In this document: positions 2,933 through 35,301 of the stretch, piece after piece
Layout of the letters: each line of letters begins with the position of its first letter
Position numbering within the stretch: position 1 is the stretch's first letter
Assembly (NCBI GenBank): GCA_011388275.1
Contig: DSAB01000036.1
Location: 1 to 35,301, forward strand
DNA length: 35,301 nt
Reading direction: 5' to 3'
From: a bacterium
Lineage (GTDB): Bacteria > Zhuqueibacterota > QNDG01 > DSAB01
Notes under the pieces: model-generated
Databases searched by the model: none
Told to the model about the DNA's origin: nothing
Seen by the model: the letters and a program-made list of their open reading frames with translations, nothing else
Made by a program: the position numbers and the translations under genes

Positions 2933-5900
2933 TTATCGAAAATCTCCTGTTAGCTGAAAAGCGGCCCAGGCTGAAGGATGCTGATTAACCTGGTCCATAA
3001 CCAGCCGCTGCGCCTTCTGCAGCGCGCGCGCCCGGCTTTCTCCAGCCCGCAGATACCGATAAAATCTTTTAACCAGCACCGCTGTGGCCAGATCATCCAC
3101 CTTCCATAAACTGGTGACAATGGAAGGAGTCCCCGCGAAAATGAACCCGCGCGCCAGACCGATGACATCATCCCCGCGTGTGATGTGGGCCAGTCCCGTC
3201 TCGCAGGCGCTCAGCATCACCAGGCCGCAGTCCAGATCCAATCCGAATATTTCATGGGCCTCAAGACGCCCGTCATCCTGCCCCTCCGGGGTCAGCAGCA
3301 GCGCGGAGAACAGGGGATTGGCCGGTTCATACTCGGCATGGCAGGCGAAATGGATGATTTCGCGATTTCGAACCGCCTCACGGATTTTTGACTCCGTCAC
3401 CTCACTACCATGATACGCCTCAACCTGTTCATAGGTTCTGACAATGGCCTGGACTTCCTTGTCCGCAAAAGGCAGATTGTATTCCGGGCCCAGTGCCGGA
3501 TTGCTGAAAGCCGCTACCGAGCCGGCGGCGATTCGGGTTCGTTCCTTTTCCCGACAGTATCCGAATACCGTAGCGCTGGGAGCCGAAGACAGAGAAAATC
3601 GCTGAATGAGGTATTCATCGCCTTTGATAGCCGCAAAGGGAAGATAGTGAAGAACTCCATGCGGAATCACAACCAGATGATTGATGTCCTTCAGGAAAGA
3701 ATCCACAGGTCGGATCAGCCGGTCATAGAGAGTCCGGGCCTCCCTGTCCACAGACAGATGGGCCTGAATAGACTCCCGGAAACGGCGTGTCTGCCGCTCG
3801 AGCACCGAATCCGGAACCAGCGTCTTCTGAAATTTGAGATCATCCCGGGTCAGACACCAGGTATAGAGCCCCTCGTCCAGATAATAGATCAGCATCGCCG
3901 CGGAATCGGGCAGCACAGACTGAATCTGTTCTACTGACCATGGATCCACCTGAACAAAAGAAGACAGTTCCGGATTCTCGGCCTGAAGACGGACCATAAA
4001 CGCCTCGTATTCCCGGCGCCTCTGTTCCAAAACCGTATGCCATACAGACAACTCATCTTCAGATCCGGTGCCGGACAAGAGAAGGCTGACACGGGTACGG
4101 GCCTCTTCGATCGACTGGCGAATACGACTCTCCTCTTCCAGCCATGCACCCTGCGCTCGAGAGAGCGCCAGGGCCTGATTGGCCAGCAGATCGATGAAAC
4201 TGCGGGACTTGGCCCGCTCCACAAAAGTCAGGGCCTCGCCGTGCCGGTTCAGACGGATCAGCAGCCGGATCATGTCGCTATACAGATCCATCTTGTCATC
4301 GAGAAAACCCTGCTGAAAGGCTTCCACTTTCAGCTCAGCCCTCATCGCTTCGACCAGATCGATGGCTCGGGACAGATCGTCCAGAGCCAGCTCGTGACGT
4401 CCCTGTCCGTCACGAATGCCGGCCCTGAGACGATGAATCCTCCAGGCAATATCCGGAATGCCCAGAGACAAAGCCTGATGCAATGCCGAATCGGCCAGAG
4501 CCAGGGCCAGAGCCGTCTTTCTCTGTGCTTGATACGCCCTGGAAAGACCAAACTGGCATTGAATTTCATTCCTCCTGTCACCCACCCGTCTGGAAAGCAT
4601 ACGCCCCTCCCTGAGAAGAGACACGGCCGACTCGGTTTCGCCTGTTTCCAGATACAGCATGCCGAGATTACGCCAGTCATAGGCCAGCCCTCTTTGATAT
4701 CCCAGTTCGGAATCGATGTCCGCCGCACGCCGAAATGATTCCAGGGCAAGGTCGAAAACTCTTTCCTGGATCGCTACCAGCCCCATGTTTTTCAGTATGG
4801 TGGCCTGATCCTCGAGACTCCCAATAGACTCGGCCATGTTCAAAGCCCGGGCCTGTGCTTCCCTGGCCCGGCGCCGGTCTCCCAGGCTCAGGTAGATCAA
4901 ACCCTGTGTACTGAATGCGGCGGCCAGCATACGGCGGTTTTGACGGGCCTCAAACTGCTCCATCGCCCGGGTTTGATATTCCATGGCCTGCCTGTACCGG
5001 CCTGATTTCCAGTGTATATTGGCCAGATGCTGCAGTGCCTGGGCGGCCTGGTCCGGCCGGTTCAGCGCCTGAAACAGGTTCAGCGAGGCCTGCTGCCGCT
5101 TTAAAGCCTCATCATACAGAGTCAACTGTTCGGCGGCCGATCCCAAAAGTTGAAGCGCCGCCGCCAATTCCATCCGTGCAGTCGAATCGTCTTCGGCCGA
5201 TTTGTGTAAAAACGTAACGGCCTGTTCGAGATGGACATAAGCCTCCTCCGCACGGTCTCCTTCCAGGGCGAAACGCCCGCGCCGGACACGGGCTTTAGCC
5301 AGGGACAGACTGTCGTCGAGACTTCGGTGCGCGATCATAAGAGAGTCCATGATCTGGTCAGCCCGATCGTAACGGCGGTTCAGAGCATAAAGAAACGCCA
5401 GCTCCTCCTGCTTATTCAAAGCCTCTCCAGAGTTTCCGCTGTCGCGCAAATGCCGGATCACTCTCGTCTTGATCCGTGCCGCCTCATCATACCGACGGCT
5501 GTTGATAAAAAACACAACCAGATTTTCCAGGCTTTCCAACACTTTATCAGATCGGCTCAGTCTCTCGGATTCGGTGAGGATCTCTTTCTGAACCGTCACG
5601 GCCTTTTCCCACAATCCTCCCCGGTAACTGGCCCGAATGATCAGCTGACGAATTCGGCCGGCCGTAAAAGAATCGTTCATGGCGCCGGCCATGACTTGTG
5701 CCTGTTCATAGTAACGGATTGCGTCCTCGTAATCCCGTCGCTGTTCATAGCCGAATCCGATCTGCAGAGTCTTGTTCAGGTTGTCGCTGGCGAATCGCAC
5801 ACGTTCCTCGGCATTCATGCCGGCATACCCCATCAGCCGATAACCTGCCCAATCCTTTATGCTTTTTGATGTGCGTCTCACCTCTTTCTGGGCCGAGGCC

Positions 5901-8900
5901 AGGGCTTCCGCAGCCGATAGCCGGATAAGATTTTGATAAAACAACCCGGCCATCCTGCCGCCGGCATCGATTGAAACATCCCAATCCACGAGCACCACTG
6001 CAGGAACTCCGCTGTATAAGAGTCCGTAATAAACCGGCAAAAAGGCCTCTTCCAACTGACCGCCGAAACGGAAAGGAGGAAGAAAGAACAGGCTCGCTTT
6101 CATAGGCAGTGGAAACAGGTCTTCTGCGGTCATCATCACATCCTTGTCAAAACCCGTGAACCCGAATCCTCCGGCCAGAGGTTCCCATTGGTTGACGACC
6201 AGTTCTCCGTACAGGTGAACCAGATCGGCTTTGCCAAGGCTCTCTGCCAGGATGTCTCTGTCCAACCGCTTCCCCTGAATCGTTTTCAGATTGATCGCAG
6301 CCGTGTTGCGCGATATTTGCCTGGCCAATTCCGTACTCCCTCCGGCCATGAGCATGTCGGTCTGATTGATACGGCGCCGTTCATGCGCCATGACAAAGGC
6401 CATAAGACTGGGCGACCAGACCACGGTATGCTGCTCAAGCAGAGGAGGCCTTTCATATGACAATGCGTGAATAGGCACCGGCCACAACGGACCGTCAGGA
6501 ACAATCAAAACCCAGTCTTTTCTCTTCAAGAGAGCCTGTACGGGCTGGATCAGCTCTTTTTCCCAGGTTCTCTGCAGGACTTTCAGGCCGCTGTCTGCCT
6601 TGAGCCCCTGAAAGAGCTCTTTTGTCATAAACATCAACCGATCCCGTGAAATCGGGAGTTCCAGGCATCGGATCGTATCCGTCTCCACGGCAAAAACGAG
6701 AGTGGCCGCTCGCAGAGACACGAAACGAATTGCCGTCCCGTTCCGGGGAATCCGCTCCTGAATCCGTCGTAAGTCCACAGGCAGGGCGCCGGCCATATAG
6801 GCCAGCACCTCGTCTTCCCGCTTCAGTTGGTCCCGCAAAGTCCGATACTCGACTTCATGAACCGCCAGCTGACTTTTCAGTGTCTCGGCGGCAGCGGTAC
6901 CGGAAACCGCTTGGGAAAGAGAAAATCGGGTCTTTCTCAGCATGGTTCGTAAATAACGGACATTGCCCCAGGCGATCTTGTGCCGCTCTTTGGACAGCTC
7001 GGGCGGCCGCCTGGCCAAAATATCCGCAATGAATTTTTGGTGCCCCTGCTCAATCGCGATCAGGGCTTCGTGAATACGGCCCTGTCTAACCATTTCTCCG
7101 GCCGCGTCCGCATAAATCTGTACTCTTTCAACACGGTCCGCCAGACGCTCCTCGCTTCCCTCTTCCTGAACCGGCAGAGCTTCCAGCAGATTTATCGCCT
7201 TTTCATACAGGCCCAGAGCCTTCTCAGCGGAATCCCCTTTCGCTTCTTGCAGCCGGGCCAGTCCGTAATAGACCCTCCATAAAAGTTCCTCCTCTCCTCG
7301 ACGTTCCAGAATCACACGGGCCTGATGATAATATCCCAGGGCGGAACCATAATCACCCAGGGCAGAGTGAACCCCTCCCAGGTTCGCAAAAAACAAGGCT
7401 CGCTGATCATCCAGGTTCAGCGAATCACTCAGGGCGCGTCCAGTCTCAAACCATTGCATGGCCTTCTCATAATCACGAAGCCGTTCAAAGGACACGAGAA
7501 CCTGATCATGCGCGCCTCCTTCGGAATACCGCTCACGTGCGGCCATTGCCCGTAATACACCCAGCTGATGCATCAAAGAAAGACATACCTGCGGATTTTC
7601 TCTTTTGGCCTGGACAAGGGCCCGTTGCAGGATTCTTTCGGCCTCTTCAAAATACTCCATGGAATGGCTCGTCATAAACGCCGCGGCCACATGTGCGAGA
7701 TTCAGTGCATTGATGAGATGTCCCCGCTGATCCTTCTGCTTGCGGCTTTCCAGAAGGGACCAGTGATAGTAATACCATGCCTGATGAAAATCACCCATCC
7801 GGTAATACAGCGTTCCAAGGCGGTTGAGACTGATCCGCCGGGCCATTGCGTCTTTCCTTGCGCGAAAAATGGCCAGCCGCTTCAGCTCGTATTCGAGGGC
7901 TTGATGAAATTGCTTCTCGCTTTCATGGCTGATACTCAACAGATTATAAACAAGAGCGGCTTCATCGGCCTGCGTAAACCCTTCGGATGAGGCTCCTCCA
8001 ATATCGGCCATTCGCCAGACTGGAATGGAAAACCCGAACAGCTCGATGCGAAGCGAACTTGCAGAAGACCGTTTTACGTCAACCGGTGTCTTGATCAGCG
8101 CCAGAGATTTTTCGGCGTACCGAATGGTCTCGCGGGGATCTCCCATCATGTGACAGTTGTAGGCCAGGTTCCGGTAGCCAAGCTGAGCCGCTTCCCGGCG
8201 GCCGTGTCTTTCGTCTTCGACCACCGTCTCCCGATAGATTTCGATGGCTGCTTCAAATTCACCGGCCAGATGATGGATAAAAGCAAGCCTCTGTTTATTT
8301 TGATAGACCTTGTCCTTACGGTCCAGAGAAGCATAGATGTCAATGGCACGGTCCAGAAAACGGGTGACTGTGGCATATTCAGTCACCACCAAACCACAAC
8401 GTCCCGCCCGCTCATAAAAAGTCGCCTCTTCCAATGGATGGCTGAACGTTGAGTCCATTTTCAGCCGAAGCAGATAATAATCAAAAGCCTTTTGATAACC
8501 ATACTCTCCGAGGTTGAAAAAATTATTGGCCAGATTCTGGGCCAAACGCGCCTCCATAAACGGGTCCAGGGTTTCATCGTTGAGTTCCAGGGCTGTGATC
8601 AGAGCAGCAATGGCTTTCTCGTAATACCCTTTCGTTGGGCTATCTCCACCCGGCAGCAGGCCCCAGGCCCAGCGAAGCGGCGCTGTCAACAGATTCAAGA
8701 AGCCTCGTACAAAGCCGTCTTTCTTCAGAGCATCCCTCTCTTCGAGCCGCTCAATCAATTCATAATTGTAACCCAGGGTTCGATAGGGATGAATCATGCG
8801 ATAATCTTCAGCCAGAGCAAGATACAGCCACTCATTGGATTTTTTCAGGATTCTACGGTCCGTTTCCCCCAGGAAGGAAAGAATCAACCCCCTGGCATAC

Positions 8901-11059
8901 AGCAAGGCCGGATTCCGTTTGTCTTCTTCAAGGGCGGCCTCATATTCTGCGGACAGTGTCTCGAGACGGCCGGCCCGATAAGCAGTCTCGATCAGACCGC
9001 GGTGCAGTTCAAGATCGTCGGAATCCATAGCCAGCGCCCTGCGATACCGGGCTTCGGCCAGTCCCAGATCACCGAGACCGGCCAGGCGGCGGGCGGATTC
9101 GGAAAGAATCTGAAAGAGCAACTCCCTTGCCTGTGCATAATAGACGCCTCCCTCCACCGTTGCATACCGATTCATCACTTCTTCCAGGATCAGGGAGGCT
9201 TCGAGTTCTTCTGTCCGCTCCCTGTGAATGCGCGCTCTGGCGATCCTCGATTCGGCCTGGGCCCAATCTTCGAAGCTTGTTTCTTCCAGAACCTGCAGCT
9301 CACGCAAAGCCGAATCCCACTGCCTGCGTTCTGCCAGGACTCCGGCAATGGACAATTGGGCCCTGGCCTGCAATAAAGGAAATTCAGGCAATTCCTGAAT
9401 GACCGCCCGGTATCCCGGGATCGGATCCGCCGCTTCCCTGACCTGAGACAGAAGCCTTTCACCGGCCCGCTCTCGCCACAAGGGAACATCACCGTATTCC
9501 CTTAAAACCGACAAATAAACCAGGCGGGCGGTTTCCTCCTGCTCCTCCTTGAGTACGTCCCCGATTTTCAGGCGCGCCGGGGCTTTCAGATTGGGAAGCC
9601 CTTCTCCCAATTGTACGGCTTCGCTGTAGGCCGAGAGAGCCTGACCTCTCCGTCCTTGTTCCGAATACAAATCGCCGAGAAGGATCCAGGCTTCCACCTG
9701 AACGGATCTCTCGTCCTGAAACTCTTCGATGACCGAGCGGCAGAGTTCGATACGCCGGCTTAGTGAATCCGGACCTGAAGCCTGTTTTAAGCGGGCCCGG
9801 GCCAGAAGCAGCCGATCACCGGGGTCGTTTAAAATGATTTGATCCAGGCATTCCTGCCGCTTGTCAGGACGGTTCAATACCGTATACAGATCGGCCATTT
9901 GAAGCAGAGCCCGGGCTTTCCATTCTTTTTCCCTCGGGAAAAAATCCAGTATCCTTTGATAGCCCAGAATGGACTCATTCAGTGCCTGCCGGGTAAAGGC
10001 CTGAACGGACCATTCCATAGCCATTTCAAATTGACCGGCTGCCGTGGAGACCCTGGGGAATCGTCCTTCAGGAAGCGAAGACCAGATGTCCAGCCCGCCT
10101 CCTCGTGTCGACGTGCAATAAAGTCGTCCATCGGCTCCCCAATGGGGTTGGAAAGAGGATTGTTCACCGGCCGTCAGCCGCAGGCTGCGGTCCCTTTCAT
10201 GCTCTGTTTCCCAGCCGATTGCATCCTCATAAAAAGGCAGGAACCGAAGGGATGCCTGGTCCATGGGCGTGATTCGTCCGTCTCCGTCCGTGTCTTCATC
10301 AAAGCGGACAAAAACCAGAGTGTTTCCATCGGGCGACCAGGCCGGTTCTCTGTCGATCCAGGGTCCGTGTGTCAAAAAGCGTATCCGGCTCTCTGAATCC
10401 GGTATAACCCCGGATAAAAACATAAGTGCGATCTCCCCTTTGGGATTTCGTTGATAGGACGTGAAAGCCAGCTTGCCCTGTATAGACCAGGCCGGATGAT
10501 GTCCTCCGGAGAGCGTGAGGGGGTCCATTTTTCCCGTTTCCCAATCCAGAAGCCAAATGTTTTTCTTTCCGTTCCGGTCCGACACAAATGCCACTTTTCT
10601 CCCGTCCGGAGAGACCGTTGGGTAACCATCCATCCCCAAATACTGAGTCAAAGGCTCCGGTTTCCCGGTAACCCGCCCTCCCCGCTTAAGATTCACGGGG
10701 ATCTTCCATAAATCCCCGCGGGCGTCTCTGCGTTTGGACACAAAAATCAAATGTTTGCCATCCGGATGCCAGCATGGCTCTGTATCTTCCGCCTGGTGTG
10801 TGGTGATCTGCACAGCAGTCCCCGTTGGCAGCGGTTTGATCCATATATCCGGATTTCCGGACCGTTCGGACACAAAGGCCAGCCACCGGCCGTCGGGAGA
10901 AACCGCCGGCCCGTAATCCGGGTCCGGATGTGTGGTCACCTGAATGGGTTCCCGTTCCGCGGGTTCCGATATATTGGTCCCGGCTGCGGTTCCAATCAGC
11001 CAGAAAAAGCAGAAAACAAAGCGGATTCGACTATTTTTTAATCCAGGTTCCGTCATCAC
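2933..11059 (-). CDS. Giant secreted PD40-TPR-CHAT-TPR-CHAT protein (2,708 residues)
   Basis: The start is GTG at 11059 or the adjacent ATG at 11056. A hydrophobic segment at residues 13-28 looks like a signal peptide. Residues about 38-345 carry TolB/PD40 propeller repeats (VSPDGRWLAFVSERSGNPDIW, VSPDGRKVAFVSDRNGKKNI), with a dockerin-like Ca2+ loop at 256-267. TPR-type helices run from about 350 to 1340. A CHAT-like domain follows (about 1340-1745, core from VPDGPLWPVPIHALSYE near 1516), in which the catalytic His position is Glu1619 and no cysteine is present in the corresponding SLFFLPPFRFGG strand. A second TPR array (about 1750-2280) leads to a second CHAT domain (RAKSRSFIDLLA near 2283; HFACHAEY with His2574; LSACETG with Cys2619). 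CHAT domains are caspase/separase-like cysteine proteases. The target is unknown. The start overlaps the YdbL-like gene by 29 bases, so it is probably translated by coupling within the operon. Confidence 0.9.
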   Translation of the reverse strand: MMTEPGLKNSRIRFVFCFFWLIGTAAGTNISEPAEREPIQVTTHPDPDYGPAVSPDGRWLAFVSERSGNPDIWIKPLPTGTAVQITTHQAEDTEPCWHPDGKHLIFVSKRRDARGDLWKIPVNLKRGGRVTGKPEPLTQYLGMDGYPTVSPDGRKVAFVSDRNGKKNIWLLDWETGKMDPLTLSGGHHPAWSIQGKLAFTSYQRNPKGEIALMFLSGVIPDSESRIRFLTHGPWIDREPAWSPDGNTLVFVRFDEDTDGDGRITPMDQASLRFLPFYEDAIGWETEHERDRSLRLTAGEQSSFQPHWGADGRLYCTSTRGGGLDIWSSLPEGRFPRVSTAAGQFEMAMEWSVQAFTRQALNESILGYQRILDFFPREKEWKARALLQMADLYTVLNRPDKRQECLDQIILNDPGDRLLLARARLKQASGPDSLSRRIELCRSVIEEFQDERSVQVEAWILLGDLYSEQGRRGQALSAYSEAVQLGEGLPNLKAPARLKIGDVLKEEQEETARLVYLSVLREYGDVPLWRERAGERLLSQVREAADPIPGYRAVIQELPEFPLLQARAQLSIAGVLAERRQWDSALRELQVLEETSFEDWAQAESRIARARIHRERTEELEASLILEEVMNRYATVEGGVYYAQARELLFQILSESARRLAGLGDLGLAEARYRRALAMDSDDLELHRGLIETAYRAGRLETLSAEYEAALEEDKRNPALLYARGLILSFLGETDRRILKKSNEWLYLALAEDYRMIHPYRTLGYNYELIERLEERDALKKDGFVRGFLNLLTAPLRWAWGLLPGGDSPTKGYYEKAIAALITALELNDETLDPFMEARLAQNLANNFFNLGEYGYQKAFDYYLLRLKMDSTFSHPLEEATFYERAGRCGLVVTEYATVTRFLDRAIDIYASLDRKDKVYQNKQRLAFIHHLAGEFEAAIEIYRETVVEDERHGRREAAQLGYRNLAYNCHMMGDPRETIRYAEKSLALIKTPVDVKRSSASSLRIELFGFSIPVWRMADIGGASSEGFTQADEAALVYNLLSISHESEKQFHQALEYELKRLAIFRARKDAMARRISLNRLGTLYYRMGDFHQAWYYYHWSLLESRKQKDQRGHLINALNLAHVAAAFMTSHSMEYFEEAERILQRALVQAKRENPQVCLSLMHQLGVLRAMAARERYSEGGAHDQVLVSFERLRDYEKAMQWFETGRALSDSLNLDDQRALFFANLGGVHSALGDYGSALGYYHQARVILERRGEEELLWRVYYGLARLQEAKGDSAEKALGLYEKAINLLEALPVQEEGSEERLADRVERVQIYADAAGEMVRQGRIHEALIAIEQGHQKFIADILARRPPELSKERHKIAWGNVRYLRTMLRKTRFSLSQAVSGTAAAETLKSQLAVHEVEYRTLRDQLKREDEVLAYMAGALPVDLRRIQERIPRNGTAIRFVSLRAATLVFAVETDTIRCLELPISRDRLMFMTKELFQGLKADSGLKVLQRTWEKELIQPVQALLKRKDWVLIVPDGPLWPVPIHALSYERPPLLEQHTVVWSPSLMAFVMAHERRRINQTDMLMAGGSTELARQISRNTAAINLKTIQGKRLDRDILAESLGKADLVHLYGELVVNQWEPLAGGFGFTGFDKDVMMTAEDLFPLPMKASLFFLPPFRFGGQLEEAFLPVYYGLLYSGVPAVVLVDWDVSIDAGGRMAGLFYQNLIRLSAAEALASAQKEVRRTSKSIKDWAGYRLMGYAGMNAEERVRFASDNLNKTLQIGFGYEQRRDYEDAIRYYEQAQVMAGAMNDSFTAGRIRQLIIRASYRGGLWEKAVTVQKEILTESERLSRSDKVLESLENLVVFFINSRRYDEAARIKTRVIRHLRDSGNSGEALNKQEELAFLYALNRRYDRADQIMDSLMIAHRSLDDSLSLAKARVRRGRFALEGDRAEEAYVHLEQAVTFLHKSAEDDSTARMELAAALQLLGSAAEQLTLYDEALKRQQASLNLFQALNRPDQAAQALQHLANIHWKSGRYRQAMEYQTRAMEQFEARQNRRMLAAAFSTQGLIYLSLGDRRRAREAQARALNMAESIGSLEDQATILKNMGLVAIQERVFDLALESFRRAADIDSELGYQRGLAYDWRNLGMLYLETGETESAVSLLREGRMLSRRVGDRRNEIQCQFGLSRAYQAQRKTALALALADSALHQALSLGIPDIAWRIHRLRAGIRDGQGRHELALDDLSRAIDLVEAMRAELKVEAFQQGFLDDKMDLYSDMIRLLIRLNRHGEALTFVERAKSRSFIDLLANQALALSRAQGAWLEEESRIRQSIEEARTRVSLLLSGTGSEDELSVWHTVLEQRRREYEAFMVRLQAENPELSSFVQVDPWSVEQIQSVLPDSAAMLIYYLDEGLYTWCLTRDDLKFQKTLVPDSVLERQTRRFRESIQAHLSVDREARTLYDRLIRPVDSFLKDINHLVVIPHGVLHYLPFAAIKGDEYLIQRFSLSSAPSATVFGYCREKERTRIAAGSVAAFSNPALGPEYNLPFADKEVQAIVRTYEQVEAYHGSEVTESKIREAVRNREIIHFACHAEYEPANPLFSALLLTPEGQDDGRLEAHEIFGLDLDCGLVMLSACETGLAHITRGDDVIGLARGFIFAGTPSIVTSLWKVDDLATAVLVKRFYRYLRAGESRARALQKAQRLVMDQVNQHPSAWAAFQLTGDFR
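10259..10294 (-). other. Dockerin/EF-hand-like calcium-binding loop in the giant protein
   Basis: Codons here encode DTDGDGRITPMD, which matches the canonical EF-hand/dockerin loop pattern D-x-D-x-D-G-x-I-x-x-x-D/E (Asp256, 258, 260, Gly261, Ile263, Asp267). It sits within the N-terminal propeller region, between PD40 repeats. A single loop of this kind usually binds structural calcium, which fits an extracytoplasmic location. That it binds calcium is an inference from the pattern. Confidence 0.65.
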
Positions 11060-31333: not shown

Positions 31334-31984
31334 TCAGTGGCTTTTGCCCAACGCTTCTTCTCTTTGCTTTCGACCGCCCAGGTTCAGTTTTCTCAGGTAA
31401 CGCCACACCGTCAGAGTGCCCACCCGACTGAATCCATATTTCTCTGTATTCAGCTCTCTGGAAATGCGGGATGGTCCCCACGATACATTCTCCAATGCCA
31501 GCTGTCGTATTTTCTCATCCAGTCCTTGAGGAATACTTTGCATTTCCATTTCCGGCTCTTCAGACACCATTTCAGGCCGATCCTCTTCGTCCACCGGTTC
31601 TGCCCTTTTCAGAGTCGAAATGCCCATTTCTTCTTCAAAGCTGTTGATTGCCTCCTCAACCGTATCAAATGCCTTGAGGATATAATGAAATTCCAGAAGC
31701 TCGAAAACTTCATAAACATCGGGAATCATGCGAGCCAGTTTCAGATCTCCATTCCTTTCCCGCATTCCCTTGATTTCACTGATAAAAATCCCCCACCCCG
31801 CACTGGAAATATAATCCACATTCCCCAGATCAATAATCACGCGGAACACACCCGCCTTCAACAGGGAATCCAACGCCCTTTCCAGCTCAGAGGATGTCGT
31901 TGTATCAATATAACCGCCGACACGGATGATGGAAATATCACTTTGAGGTCCGATTTTCTCAACTGAAACCTGAATGCCTTCCAT
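31334..31984 (-). CDS. STAS anti-anti-sigma-like protein fused to a helix-turn-helix domain
   Basis: This is a 216-residue protein starting at the ATG at 31984, which has an AAGGAG seven bases upstream. Residues 1-115 form a STAS domain with the phospho-acceptor loop LGNVDYISSAGWGIF (Ser60/Ser61). An acidic linker (EEDRPEMVSEEPEMEM) follows. The C-terminal 60 residues are a helix-turn-helix of the IS481/IS3-transposase type (ENVSWGPSRISRELNTEKYG, then TLTVWRYLRKLNL). STAS proteins normally act by binding an anti-sigma kinase when unphosphorylated and have no DNA-binding part. Here the protein could bind DNA directly. The neighbouring phosphatase protein carries a matching module. Confidence 0.88.
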   Translation of the reverse strand: MEGIQVSVEKIGPQSDISIIRVGGYIDTTTSSELERALDSLLKAGVFRVIIDLGNVDYISSAGWGIFISEIKGMRERNGDLKLARMIPDVYEVFELLEFHYILKAFDTVEEAINSFEEEMGISTLKRAEPVDEEDRPEMVSEEPEMEMQSIPQGLDEKIRQLALENVSWGPSRISRELNTEKYGFSRVGTLTVWRYLRKLNLGGRKQREEALGKSH

Positions 31985-32030
31985 GAATATCTCCTTCCGC
32001 CCTATCACGAATTCTTGTTAACAGTAGAAC

Positions 32031-32059
32031 AATTTAATAGAAAAACCCACCATTGTCAA
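32031..32059 (-). promoter_or_regulatory. Sigma-70-like promoter for the STAS-aconitase transcript
   Basis: On the minus strand a perfect TTGACA (32054-32059) is separated by 17 bases from TAAATT (32031-32036), 47 bases upstream of the STAS start codon. Spacing is optimal and the -10 matches four of six consensus bases. It begins just ten bases after the stop of the kinase/phosphatase gene, so the STAS gene can be transcribed on its own. Confidence 0.6.
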
Positions 32060-32069
32060 CTCTTTTATC

Positions 32070-35000
32070 CTACAAATACTGCTGCCTGATCACCCTCTGC
32101 ATCTTCTTGATTCTTTCGATGATATCCCGCCTTTCCGGATTCCTTTTCAAAACTTCCCCCCATTGCCAAACCGCCTTTTTATAATCCCCCCGATTGGCAA
32201 ATATCACTCCCAGATTTTCCAACACACTGACATTGCCCGGGTCCAGATGACGAACCCGTTCATAGGCATCCCTGGCTTCTTCCATTCGACCCATTCGAAA
32301 ATAGGTATCGCCAAGACATTGAAACGCATCGGCAAATTCCGGATCTTCTTTAACGGCTTTTTGAAATGCATCGACCGCCGCCTGATAATCCCCCGCCCTG
32401 TATAAAACAAGACCTCTGTTTAAAAAGTGGGTTTTTCGTTGATGAATGATCGCGGGGCTGGGTTTTTCCCGCCTCGGGGTTTTCCCGGTTGACAACATGT
32501 TTCGGCGATCGAAGCCCAGTTCCTCCATCACATCGATGAATCCATCTTCCTCCTGATCCGATACAGACAAAGTGGTATTCTCCTCGACACCCATCTCTTC
32601 ACTGATTAAATCACCCACAATGGATGCGGTGATATGGTCTTCGATTTCATTCTCTTCATGCTCTGAATCCACTTCCTCATTCAGCAATTCGTCCATTGAG
32701 GGTACACGCTCCTGTGTACCGACCAATTCTTCTTCGAATGAAGACTCTCCATTCAGATCCAGCACATCGGTAATGATTTCGTTGAGAACCGACTCTTCCT
32801 GCTGCACACTGTCTTCGATCAGCGATTCAGGGCTTTCCATCTCAAAATCGATTTCATCTTCTCGCAAAACATCCTCTTGCATGATACGCCCGTCGGCTGT
32901 CTCAGAAACGGTTTTTCCATCTTCCGGTGTTTCCTTTTCTTCCTTCTCCGTCTCCTTGTAATCGGTTTCCAGGTCTTCCGCCTGACCGGGCAGCCCCAAA
33001 AAACGGTCTAAAACATCGGTATCTTCCTTTCTTCCTTCATCTTTTTGCCGTGAACTTCTCTGCGATATGCGCAATACTTTGGACTGTGGAAAATCATCGG
33101 ATACCGAATCCGGTTCACCGGCCGGAGAACCATCGATAATGACCTTGCCGTCCATGGTCAGCATCGGAGTACCGGGTGTTTTAATGCGTTTGGCTTTGCC
33201 CCCCCGCTCGATAAAATTCATGCGCAGTTCCCTGGTGTTCAGACGGCTGCGCTTGAGTTCATCATAGATGCGTCGTTCATCCATTTTCACGTAACCGTAT
33301 TTTTCCGAATTCAACTCTTCGCTGATCCGCTTGGCTCCGAATTCAGGATTGTTCTTAATAATATCCAGAATCCTGGCTTTGTCTTCAATGCTGGTGTGCT
33401 TTTCTTCAAGATCAGACCGTTGCGTGGTTTCTTTTAATCCTTCAATTCCCTGCTTGTCATAGCGTTTTTTATATTTATAATAGGTGGATGTGGAAACACC
33501 GATAATCTCACAGGCTTCCTTAACGCTTTTTCCCTCTTCATTCACCAATCCAATAAGCCTTAGCCGCCGGTTGTACATCACATCTTCCGCCTTCAGTTTT
33601 TCCCGAATCGCCATTAAAGTGATATCATCACTCTGAGCAAACCCCTGAGTGAAATCCTTGATCTCATCCTGTAGCTTGTCAACCAACGGATCCACTTTCA
33701 GTTCTCCATGGCGGCGTATCGATTCCAGAAACCGTTCGTCGCCGTATCGCTCTCTTTTTGGGTCCATCGCTTCGGTGATCCCGTCCGTATAGAGAATTAA
33801 TACATCGCCTTCCCTCAGCCACAGGTTATCGGATTGAATCGATTTCCTGAACAGTGTCCGATCAGGCAGGTTGATGCCAATGGGAAATCCTCTTGGATTC
33901 AAATAATAACTTTTCCTGGTTTGCCCGCGAAAGAGAATCATGGGATTATGACCCGCACTGGCATAATTGATGGTTCGGTTTTGAGAATCAAGAATCAGAT
34001 AAAAAACCGTGACAAACATACCGCGCTTCATATCGTTTATGACAAAATCATTGACCCTGGCCAGCACATCCGCCGCGTTTTTGTTTCCCCTTGCCTCCGT
34101 TCTCAGGGCCGTTCGAATCATGGTCATAACCAGAGAACCGGGCACGCCTTTTCCCGACACATCAGCCACCACAATGCCCAGAGTATCTTTGTCCACTTCC
34201 ACAAAATCAAAATAGTCGCCTCCCACTTCCTTGGCCGCTTCATAGTAGGATGCGATCTCATAGCCTTCAATTTCCGGAAACACCGCCGGTAAAAGAGTAT
34301 GTTGAATTTCCTGCGCAACCTGCATCTCTTTCTGAAGCCGTTCCTGTTCCGCCAAATTTTCCTGCGACTTGCGGAACTTTTCCGTAATCTCATTAAAGGC
34401 TTGTGCGATCTCGCCGACTTCATCGGATGCGTTGAATTCCATTTCATCCTGAGACTCACCCCGGCCTAAATCGCGGACCCACCTGGACAGTTTTTTAAAC
34501 GGGCTCATGGTTACATAAACCAATATAAAAACGCCCAGATACCCGATTACAAGCACAACAATACCGATCCCCATGGTCCTATGACGGGCCTGACGAATAT
34601 TTCCATCAATATAGTTTTTACTGAGCAGCAAATGAATCTGTCCCAGCCGGTTTGCCCTTCCCGAAACTTCATGAACAACCGGTTCGGTAAGATCGTATAC
34701 AGTCTCTTCGGTTGCCGGTATTGTATACTTCCAAACCGATGGAAAAAAGAGTACCGCATCAGACGGACGGCGATATTGCTGGAACAGGTATTCCGTAGTG
34801 ACCGCTCCTTTGATGGTGCCGCTGGTGTCGGCCACAATGGCCTCAACAATAAAAGGATCCTGATTCCGCTGAAGAGTTGATGCAATCTTCGTCAACTCCC
34901 ACATCTCATCATTCGTCAATGGATCGAGAATGCTGGAAGCCATGGATCTTGCCAGGGCCCTTCCCATATCAAAACTTTCATTTAAAATCACTTTTTCCTG

Positions 35001-35301
35001 ACGAATATAATTATAGGTGATGCCTATAACAGCCAGAAAGGTAAGTATCGCCGACGCAATTAAAGAAAATCGGTTCTTCATGGTTAGTGACAGTTCCGGC
35101 ACCAATAACTTTCTGCCTGATTCCGTTTCCCGATTTTTCGTTAACCGAAGTTCATTGCCTTCGGGTGTTTTGCGATAATCGATCTCATCGATCACCCGGC
35201 GAATGATAAAAATCCCCAAACCGCCTTTCTTCCCGATGTCCACATACCTTTGCAGATCGGGATCCTTGGCCTGATTGGGATCAAATGTATGACCCTGATC
35301 A
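32070..35301 (-). CDS. Membrane-bound kinase/SpoIIE phosphatase/HTH/TPR fusion protein, 5' end beyond window
   Basis: The frame is open to the right edge; a GTG at 35243 is internal. Bases 35300 to about 35130 encode the end of an RsbW-type ATPase/kinase domain (DQGHTFDP, GGLGIFIIRRVIDEIDY, GNELRLTKN). Then come a membrane helix (about 35075-35010), a periplasmic sensor of about 140 residues, a second helix (about 34575-34510) and a HAMP and coil. A complete SpoIIE/PP2C phosphatase follows (EVGGDYFDF, VVADVSGKGVPG, YTDGITEAMD, SDDITL; 34310-33600). Two helix-turn-helix units (33580-33440 and 33410-33230) resemble transposase DNA-binding regions. A highly acidic linker (about 33000-32510) leads to about three TPRs (32430-32080). 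It probably phosphorylates and dephosphorylates STAS partners in response to an envelope signal; the downstream STAS protein is the obvious candidate. Confidence 0.87.
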   Translation of the reverse strand, partial: DQGHTFDPNQAKDPDLQRYVDIGKKGGLGIFIIRRVIDEIDYRKTPEGNELRLTKNRETESGRKLLVPELSLTMKNRFSLIASAILTFLAVIGITYNYIRQEKVILNESFDMGRALARSMASSILDPLTNDEMWELTKIASTLQRNQDPFIVEAIVADTSGTIKGAVTTEYLFQQYRRPSDAVLFFPSVWKYTIPATEETVYDLTEPVVHEVSGRANRLGQIHLLLSKNYIDGNIRQARHRTMGIGIVVLVIGYLGVFILVYVTMSPFKKLSRWVRDLGRGESQDEMEFNASDEVGEIAQAFNEITEKFRKSQENLAEQERLQKEMQVAQEIQHTLLPAVFPEIEGYEIASYYEAAKEVGGDYFDFVEVDKDTLGIVVADVSGKGVPGSLVMTMIRTALRTEARGNKNAADVLARVNDFVINDMKRGMFVTVFYLILDSQNRTINYASAGHNPMILFRGQTRKSYYLNPRGFPIGINLPDRTLFRKSIQSDNLWLREGDVLILYTDGITEAMDPKRERYGDERFLESIRRHGELKVDPLVDKLQDEIKDFTQGFAQSDDITLMAIREKLKAEDVMYNRRLRLIGLVNEEGKSVKEACEIIGVSTSTYYKYKKRYDKQGIEGLKETTQRSDLEEKHTSIEDKARILDIIKNNPEFGAKRISEELNSEKYGYVKMDERRIYDELKRSRLNTRELRMNFIERGGKAKRIKTPGTPMLTMDGKVIIDGSPAGEPDSVSDDFPQSKVLRISQRSSRQKDEGRKEDTDVLDRFLGLPGQAEDLETDYKETEKEEKETPEDGKTVSETADGRIMQEDVLREDEIDFEMESPESLIEDSVQQEESVLNEIITDVLDLNGESSFEEELVGTQERVPSMDELLNEEVDSEHEENEIEDHITASIVGDLISEEMGVEENTTLSVSDQEEDGFIDVMEELGFDRRNMLSTGKTPRREKPSPAIIHQRKTHFLNRGLVLYRAGDYQAAVDAFQKAVKEDPEFADAFQCLGDTYFRMGRMEEARDAYERVRHLDPGNVSVLENLGVIFANRGDYKKAVWQWGEVLKRNPERRDIIERIKKMQRVIRQQYL

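Follow-up and report, generated by a model that had tools for sequence, protein, structure and literature searches.

STAS proteins are usually regarded as adaptors acting on other proteins. The single-domain proteins SpoIIAA and RsbV, for example, have an anti-sigma factor as their target. In Vibrio fischeri, a kinase-phosphatase fusion (SypE) controls SypA, a STAS protein tied to polysaccharide (PMC10120452). CapS is a repressor consisting of a STAS domain and a winged helix-turn-helix (HTH); when the GHKL kinase CapK phosphorylates it, the dimer falls apart and transcription is de-repressed (PMC13373217, EMBO J 2026). A STAS-HTH protein as a phosphorylation-controlled regulator has been known since CapS. 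Here, we compare with these systems two adjacent genes on the reverse strand of a 35,301-nucleotide stretch of bacterial DNA (contig DSAB01000036.1, assembly GCA_011388275.1; hereafter the window).

The first gene (paralogue A; 31334-31984) is an unbroken translation from ATG of 216 amino acids followed by a stop codon, and orthologues were found. A ribosome binding site (AAGGAG; 31991-31996) stands 6 nt before the ATG, and a predicted sigma-70-like promoter (TTGACA-17-TAAATT; 32031-32059) is located between gene A and the gene upstream of it. The preliminary description was therefore right to treat the protein as complete, with its own ribosome binding site and (predicted) promoter. Sigma-70-like promoters with at least 10 of 12 matches preceded 36 of 80 gene A orthologues, compared with 5.5 expected from shuffles. 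Beyond this promoter, no conserved operator was apparent by eye upstream of 33 orthologues. The neighbours of gene A are aconitase, Obg-like or DprA-like genes.

Residues 15-112 (31649-31942) form a STAS domain, as indicated by PF01740 (E=2.4e-18), by conservation and by Foldseek matches to SpoIIAA/RsbV-type structures. SpoIIAA and RsbV share with the window protein the STAS fold, a serine at the start of helix 2 and cognate kinase and phosphatase families, but only the window protein has a conserved C-terminal HTH. The preliminary description had pointed to Ser60/61 as the site of phosphorylation. In the alignment to 1TH8 and 1TID, Ser61 (codon 31802-31804) is the counterpart of the phosphorylated Ser58 of SpoIIAA, the position mutated to Ala in 1TID, and it is invariant in 80 A orthologues, while Ser60 occupies the position of the Asp preceding Ser58. 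Of the two residues, it is Ser61 that, judging from this alignment, is likely the phosphosite.

Mean entropy across the 80 A orthologues was 0.63 bits for STAS, 1.88 for the HTH and 3.24 for the linker between them (residues 118-153; 31526-31633), which is mostly predicted to be disordered (pLDDT <50 for residues 123-142 and 144-152). The STAS domain is hence almost invariant and the linker unconserved, with the HTH intermediate and having a conserved core; several exposed positions in the third helix of the HTH vary among orthologues. The mean net charge was -9.4 for the STAS part and +6.7 for the HTH of A, and it reached +10.4 for the HTH of a second STAS-HTH protein (paralogue B, see below).

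The C-terminal HTH (residues 155-212; 31349-31522) is of the transposase/paired type and resembles HTH_21 and HTH_32. Both profiles matched the window protein weakly (E=0.011 each, below curated cut-offs), and NF033577 was also weak (E=0.0043). HTH_21 reached E=0.0022 with the isolated 61-residue C-terminal segment and E=4.9e-6 in the closest orthologue (27.1 bits vs. a cut-off of 28.1). AlphaFold predicted four helices (155-165, 171-178, 190-199 and 205-212; pLDDT about 94), with no strand and no wing within residues 155-212. Foldseek with the whole STAS-HTH model returned STAS matches only, and the HTH fold of the STAS protein is accordingly drawn from the model of that domain and from its homologue in the kinase-phosphatase described below. 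Given the HTH_21 match in the orthologue and the AlphaFold helices, the fusion of STAS to a transposase-type HTH, as originally described, is upheld. By profile and predicted structure, the domain is a basic, four-helix HTH of the IS3/IS481/IS630 transposase type. Those transposases (HTH_21, HTH_23, HTH_32) share the HTH type, and also the bipartite arrangement seen in the kinase-phosphatase, but differ in that the window genes lack a DDE catalytic domain and are not a mobile element; for neither protein did the family matches include a DDE domain. A plasmid search for the STAS-HTH architecture yielded STAS-only matches, none of which spanned 80% of the query.

The second gene (32070-35300), upstream of A, is cut by the contig end and encodes a kinase-phosphatase composed of HATPase, transmembrane sensor, HAMP, SpoIIE/PP2C, bipartite HTH, acidic linker and TPR segments. 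Specifically, it includes the C-terminal part of an RsbW-type kinase domain (HATPase_c_2; 35136-35300; PF13581, E=2.8e-9), the remainder of which is past the contig end, a sensor region flanked by two transmembrane segments, HAMP (34380-34511; PF00672, E=4e-6), a SpoIIE/PP2C phosphatase domain (33603-34190; PF07228, E=3.3e-51), the bipartite HTH (IS481/IS630 type; 33183-33569) and TPR repeats detected by domain search (32133-32441). In the full-length orthologue at L044, the kinase domain is entire (E=2.8e-24) and is joined to PP2C in one protein; no receiver domain was listed for this protein, which has a transmembrane sensor and HAMP instead. At 75 of the 80 loci, the kinase-phosphatase gene immediately precedes the one for the STAS-HTH protein, and the remaining five include several cut by contig ends. 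Kinase, phosphatase and HTH were found in a single ORF at 63 loci, with the kinase N-box and PP2C metal motifs retained in most of these. Many copies in the second phylum (see below) are shorter (about 890-1100 aa), and those examined gave no match to TPR.

The second half of the bipartite HTH is homologous to the HTH of the STAS protein, and NF033577 spans residues 578-709 of the kinase-phosphatase (E=2.5e-18). The model of this HTH (pLDDT 88) had its best fold matches among bipartite, paired-type domains, namely TnsB, Pax6, Pax5, Mos1, Tc3, IstA and Mu. Because the scores were middling (Foldseek E from 0.035; best VIA Z 6.8), DNA binding is supported but not proven, and fold alone proves no function. 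Between the HTH and the TPRs there is a 231-residue stretch (32466-33158) with a net charge of -50, which could possibly act as an intramolecular rival of DNA for the HTH. We also note that an extra kinase-phosphatase-HTH copy in a related genome (G026; L185 1-4327) adjoins a 413-aa protein that has a TIR-like N-terminus and a HATPase-like middle (both by eye) and a STAS C-terminus.

The two genes resemble CapK/CapS in that a STAS protein with an invariant phospho-Ser and a C-terminal HTH is adjacent to a GHKL kinase that itself bears an HTH. There are also differences. CapS has a MarR-like winged HTH, whereas the HTH of the window protein is of the transposase/paired type and has no wing in the model. 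CapK is an HTH-STAS-GHKL protein for which neither a phosphatase nor a membrane part is described, whereas the partner here is HATPase-TM-HAMP-SpoIIE-HTH-TPR. CapK/CapS are found beside immune operons, with CapS upstream of them, whereas the genes here are core and lie beside housekeeping or capsule genes. Phosphorylation-controlled, sigma-free DNA binding is published for CapK/CapS, while for the window genes it is a reading of the sequence. SypE/SypA also have an RsbW-like kinase and a PP2C phosphatase in one protein, a STAS substrate and a link to polysaccharide, but SypE carries a REC domain without a membrane sensor or HTH, and SypA is STAS only.

Across two phyla, 120 of 121 genomes had the HTH domain, usually in three copies. 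These phyla are named here as labelled in the genome records (KSB1 for that of the window, Calditrichota for the second). In the window's genome, the HTH profile gave exactly three copies, which are the kinase-phosphatase and STAS-HTH A and B. Among 53 KSB1 genomes that were at least 90% complete, 38 had exactly three copies, 14 had four or five and one had two; in the wider KSB1 set, at least one copy was detected in 80 of 81 genomes. For Calditrichota, the domain was found in 40/40 genomes, with exactly three copies in 29. A third lineage (record CSSED10-310) was rejected as a genuine carrier: its gene pair (L112) is on a contig of 3650 bases and is probably misbinned, considering the tiny contig and the lack of the HTH domain in the other 7 of its 8 genomes. 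The domain architecture, conservation, gene order and shared HTH are direct observations, and the STAS-HTH/kinase-phosphatase set is core in two little-known phyla. The lone regulator of the preliminary description is in fact one of three proteins with the same HTH, the upstream gene and paralogue B having been overlooked. Elsewhere in the same genome (C6, L010 6073-13233), there is a separate, classical cluster encoding PP2C, PP2C, a single-domain STAS protein, an RsbW-type kinase and PP2C. Also on the reverse strand of the window is a 2708-aa ORF (2933-11059) that, judged by eye, has a TolB-like N-terminal part as well as numerous TPR-like repeats and segments resembling CHAT proteases.

Paralogue B lies at a capsule locus. 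In the window's genome, it is flanked by a GT5 glycosyltransferase gene on one side and, on the other, by a Wza-like (Poly_export/SLBB) and Wzc-like (Wzz/AAA) pair. The Wza-like gene adjoins B in all 25 loci examined (21/21 in the window's phylum and 4/4 in the second), and the gene neighbours of B are mre, wza and wzc genes. The C-terminus of B is a conserved basic tail, KRYRFYRSR. A and B were separable as two groups in the tree, with long branches leading to the second-phylum copies of B. B is probably a second substrate of the kinase-phosphatase, in which case one enzyme would serve both STAS proteins. As separate observations, the B-wza intergenic region has a terminator-like GCATCCGC hairpin in most of the relatives viewed (L124-L135 in the window's order; L154; C3:84029-84043 in the window's own genome), and all of these show a sigma-54-like promoter of the TGGTAT-N3-ATTTGC type with GG-N10-GC spacing. 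The exact pattern TGGTATNNNATTTGC occurs four times in this genome vs. none for the reversed control, and the other three occurrences precede ORFs with secreted-protein-like starts.

From the sequences, structural models and analogy to described systems, we consider it reasonably probable that the two adjacent genes form one signalling module, a self-contained partner switch. The upstream protein would be a membrane-anchored sensor with an RsbW/SpoIIAB-type serine kinase and an opposing PP2C phosphatase, which together may determine whether the STAS domain is phosphorylated at Ser61. The STAS protein would bring its own output in the form of the C-terminal transposase-type HTH; phosphorylation of Ser61 could alter the dimerisation or accessibility of the protein and hence its DNA binding, and no release of a sigma factor would be needed. 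Paralogue B, just 5' of wza/wzc, would be a second substrate linking the module to surface polysaccharide. Phosphorylation, DNA binding and target promoters are what we infer for this module. With a kinase/phosphatase next door, an invariant Ser61, a basic HTH and the precedent of CapS, phosphorylation-controlled DNA binding is the best reading, and to this extent the direct regulator proposed in the preliminary description stands; its independence of a sigma factor is suggested by the search for SigB/F/G-type sigma factors (see below). It can further be imagined that the membrane kinase/phosphatase and both STAS substrates, through the DNA-binding domain they have in common, come together at the membrane on the same DNA sites, where the enzyme would switch its regulators and so control capsule and other surface genes in a sigma-free manner, although we regard this arrangement as rather doubtful.

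Some points speak against control of DNA binding: no DNA site was found upstream of A, and the HTH of A is far more variable than its STAS domain. A regulator with a single fixed site would hardly be expected to vary in its third helix, and since a membrane enzyme bears a matching HTH, the domain could instead be for docking. The shared HTH would then be a docking or assembly module, working through homotypic contacts or side by side on common DNA, and the output would go via another partner (e.g., a sigma factor, an anti-sigma kinase or a polysaccharide enzyme). This would fit the restriction of the domain to exactly three copies in most near-complete genomes (38/53), and to these three proteins only in the window's genome, as well as the far better conservation of the STAS surface, as would be the case with the key contacts made by STAS. 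The STAS protein SypA, under the control of SypE, acts below transcription on polysaccharide (PMC10120452). However, the HTH of the phosphatase resembles bipartite DNA-binding domains, and the HTHs of the STAS proteins are strongly basic. HTH domains are also rarely docking modules alone, which we counted against this explanation, and overall we think it unlikely, although it is the main rival.

Classical partner switching, in which the unphosphorylated STAS protein binds an RsbW-type anti-sigma kinase and thereby frees a sigma factor, with the HTH as an accessory, appears quite improbable. Both the fold of the STAS domain and its phosphosite are of the classical kind, and the same genome has a separate PP2C/STAS/RsbW cluster, but here the kinase is part of a membrane-protein fusion with a phosphatase and not a free anti-sigma factor, and the HTH is retained throughout two phyla. 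In addition, a search of 20 related genomes gave no SigB/F/G-type sigma factor (TIGR02980) scoring above the curated cut-off, a result that agrees with sigma-free output as far as these sigma types are concerned. Finally, the idea that a STAS gene was linked to a piece of a transposase by chance read-through or by an assembly error, for which only the weak HTH profile matches in the window protein itself would speak, is ruled out by the architecture kept in 80 orthologues, the presence in nearly every genome of two phyla, the confident fold and the conserved core, as the preliminary description had maintained.

New in comparison with CapS are the HTH of transposase type, a phosphatase and a membrane sensor integrated into the kinase protein, the HTH common to the enzyme and its substrates, and the core status in two phyla. 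Our search, with most subscription journals outside its reach, found no papers on this system or on partner switching in these phyla. CapS established, for a single immune-operon setting, that the transcription factor can be a STAS protein itself. If our favoured reading of phosphorylation-controlled DNA binding is true, the CapS principle would serve as a core route of signalling in two phyla that have been little studied; sensor, kinase and phosphatase would be combined in one membrane protein, and the capsule locus would hold a second branch. The two genes would then offer a compact, testable system for the control of DNA binding by STAS serine phosphorylation.
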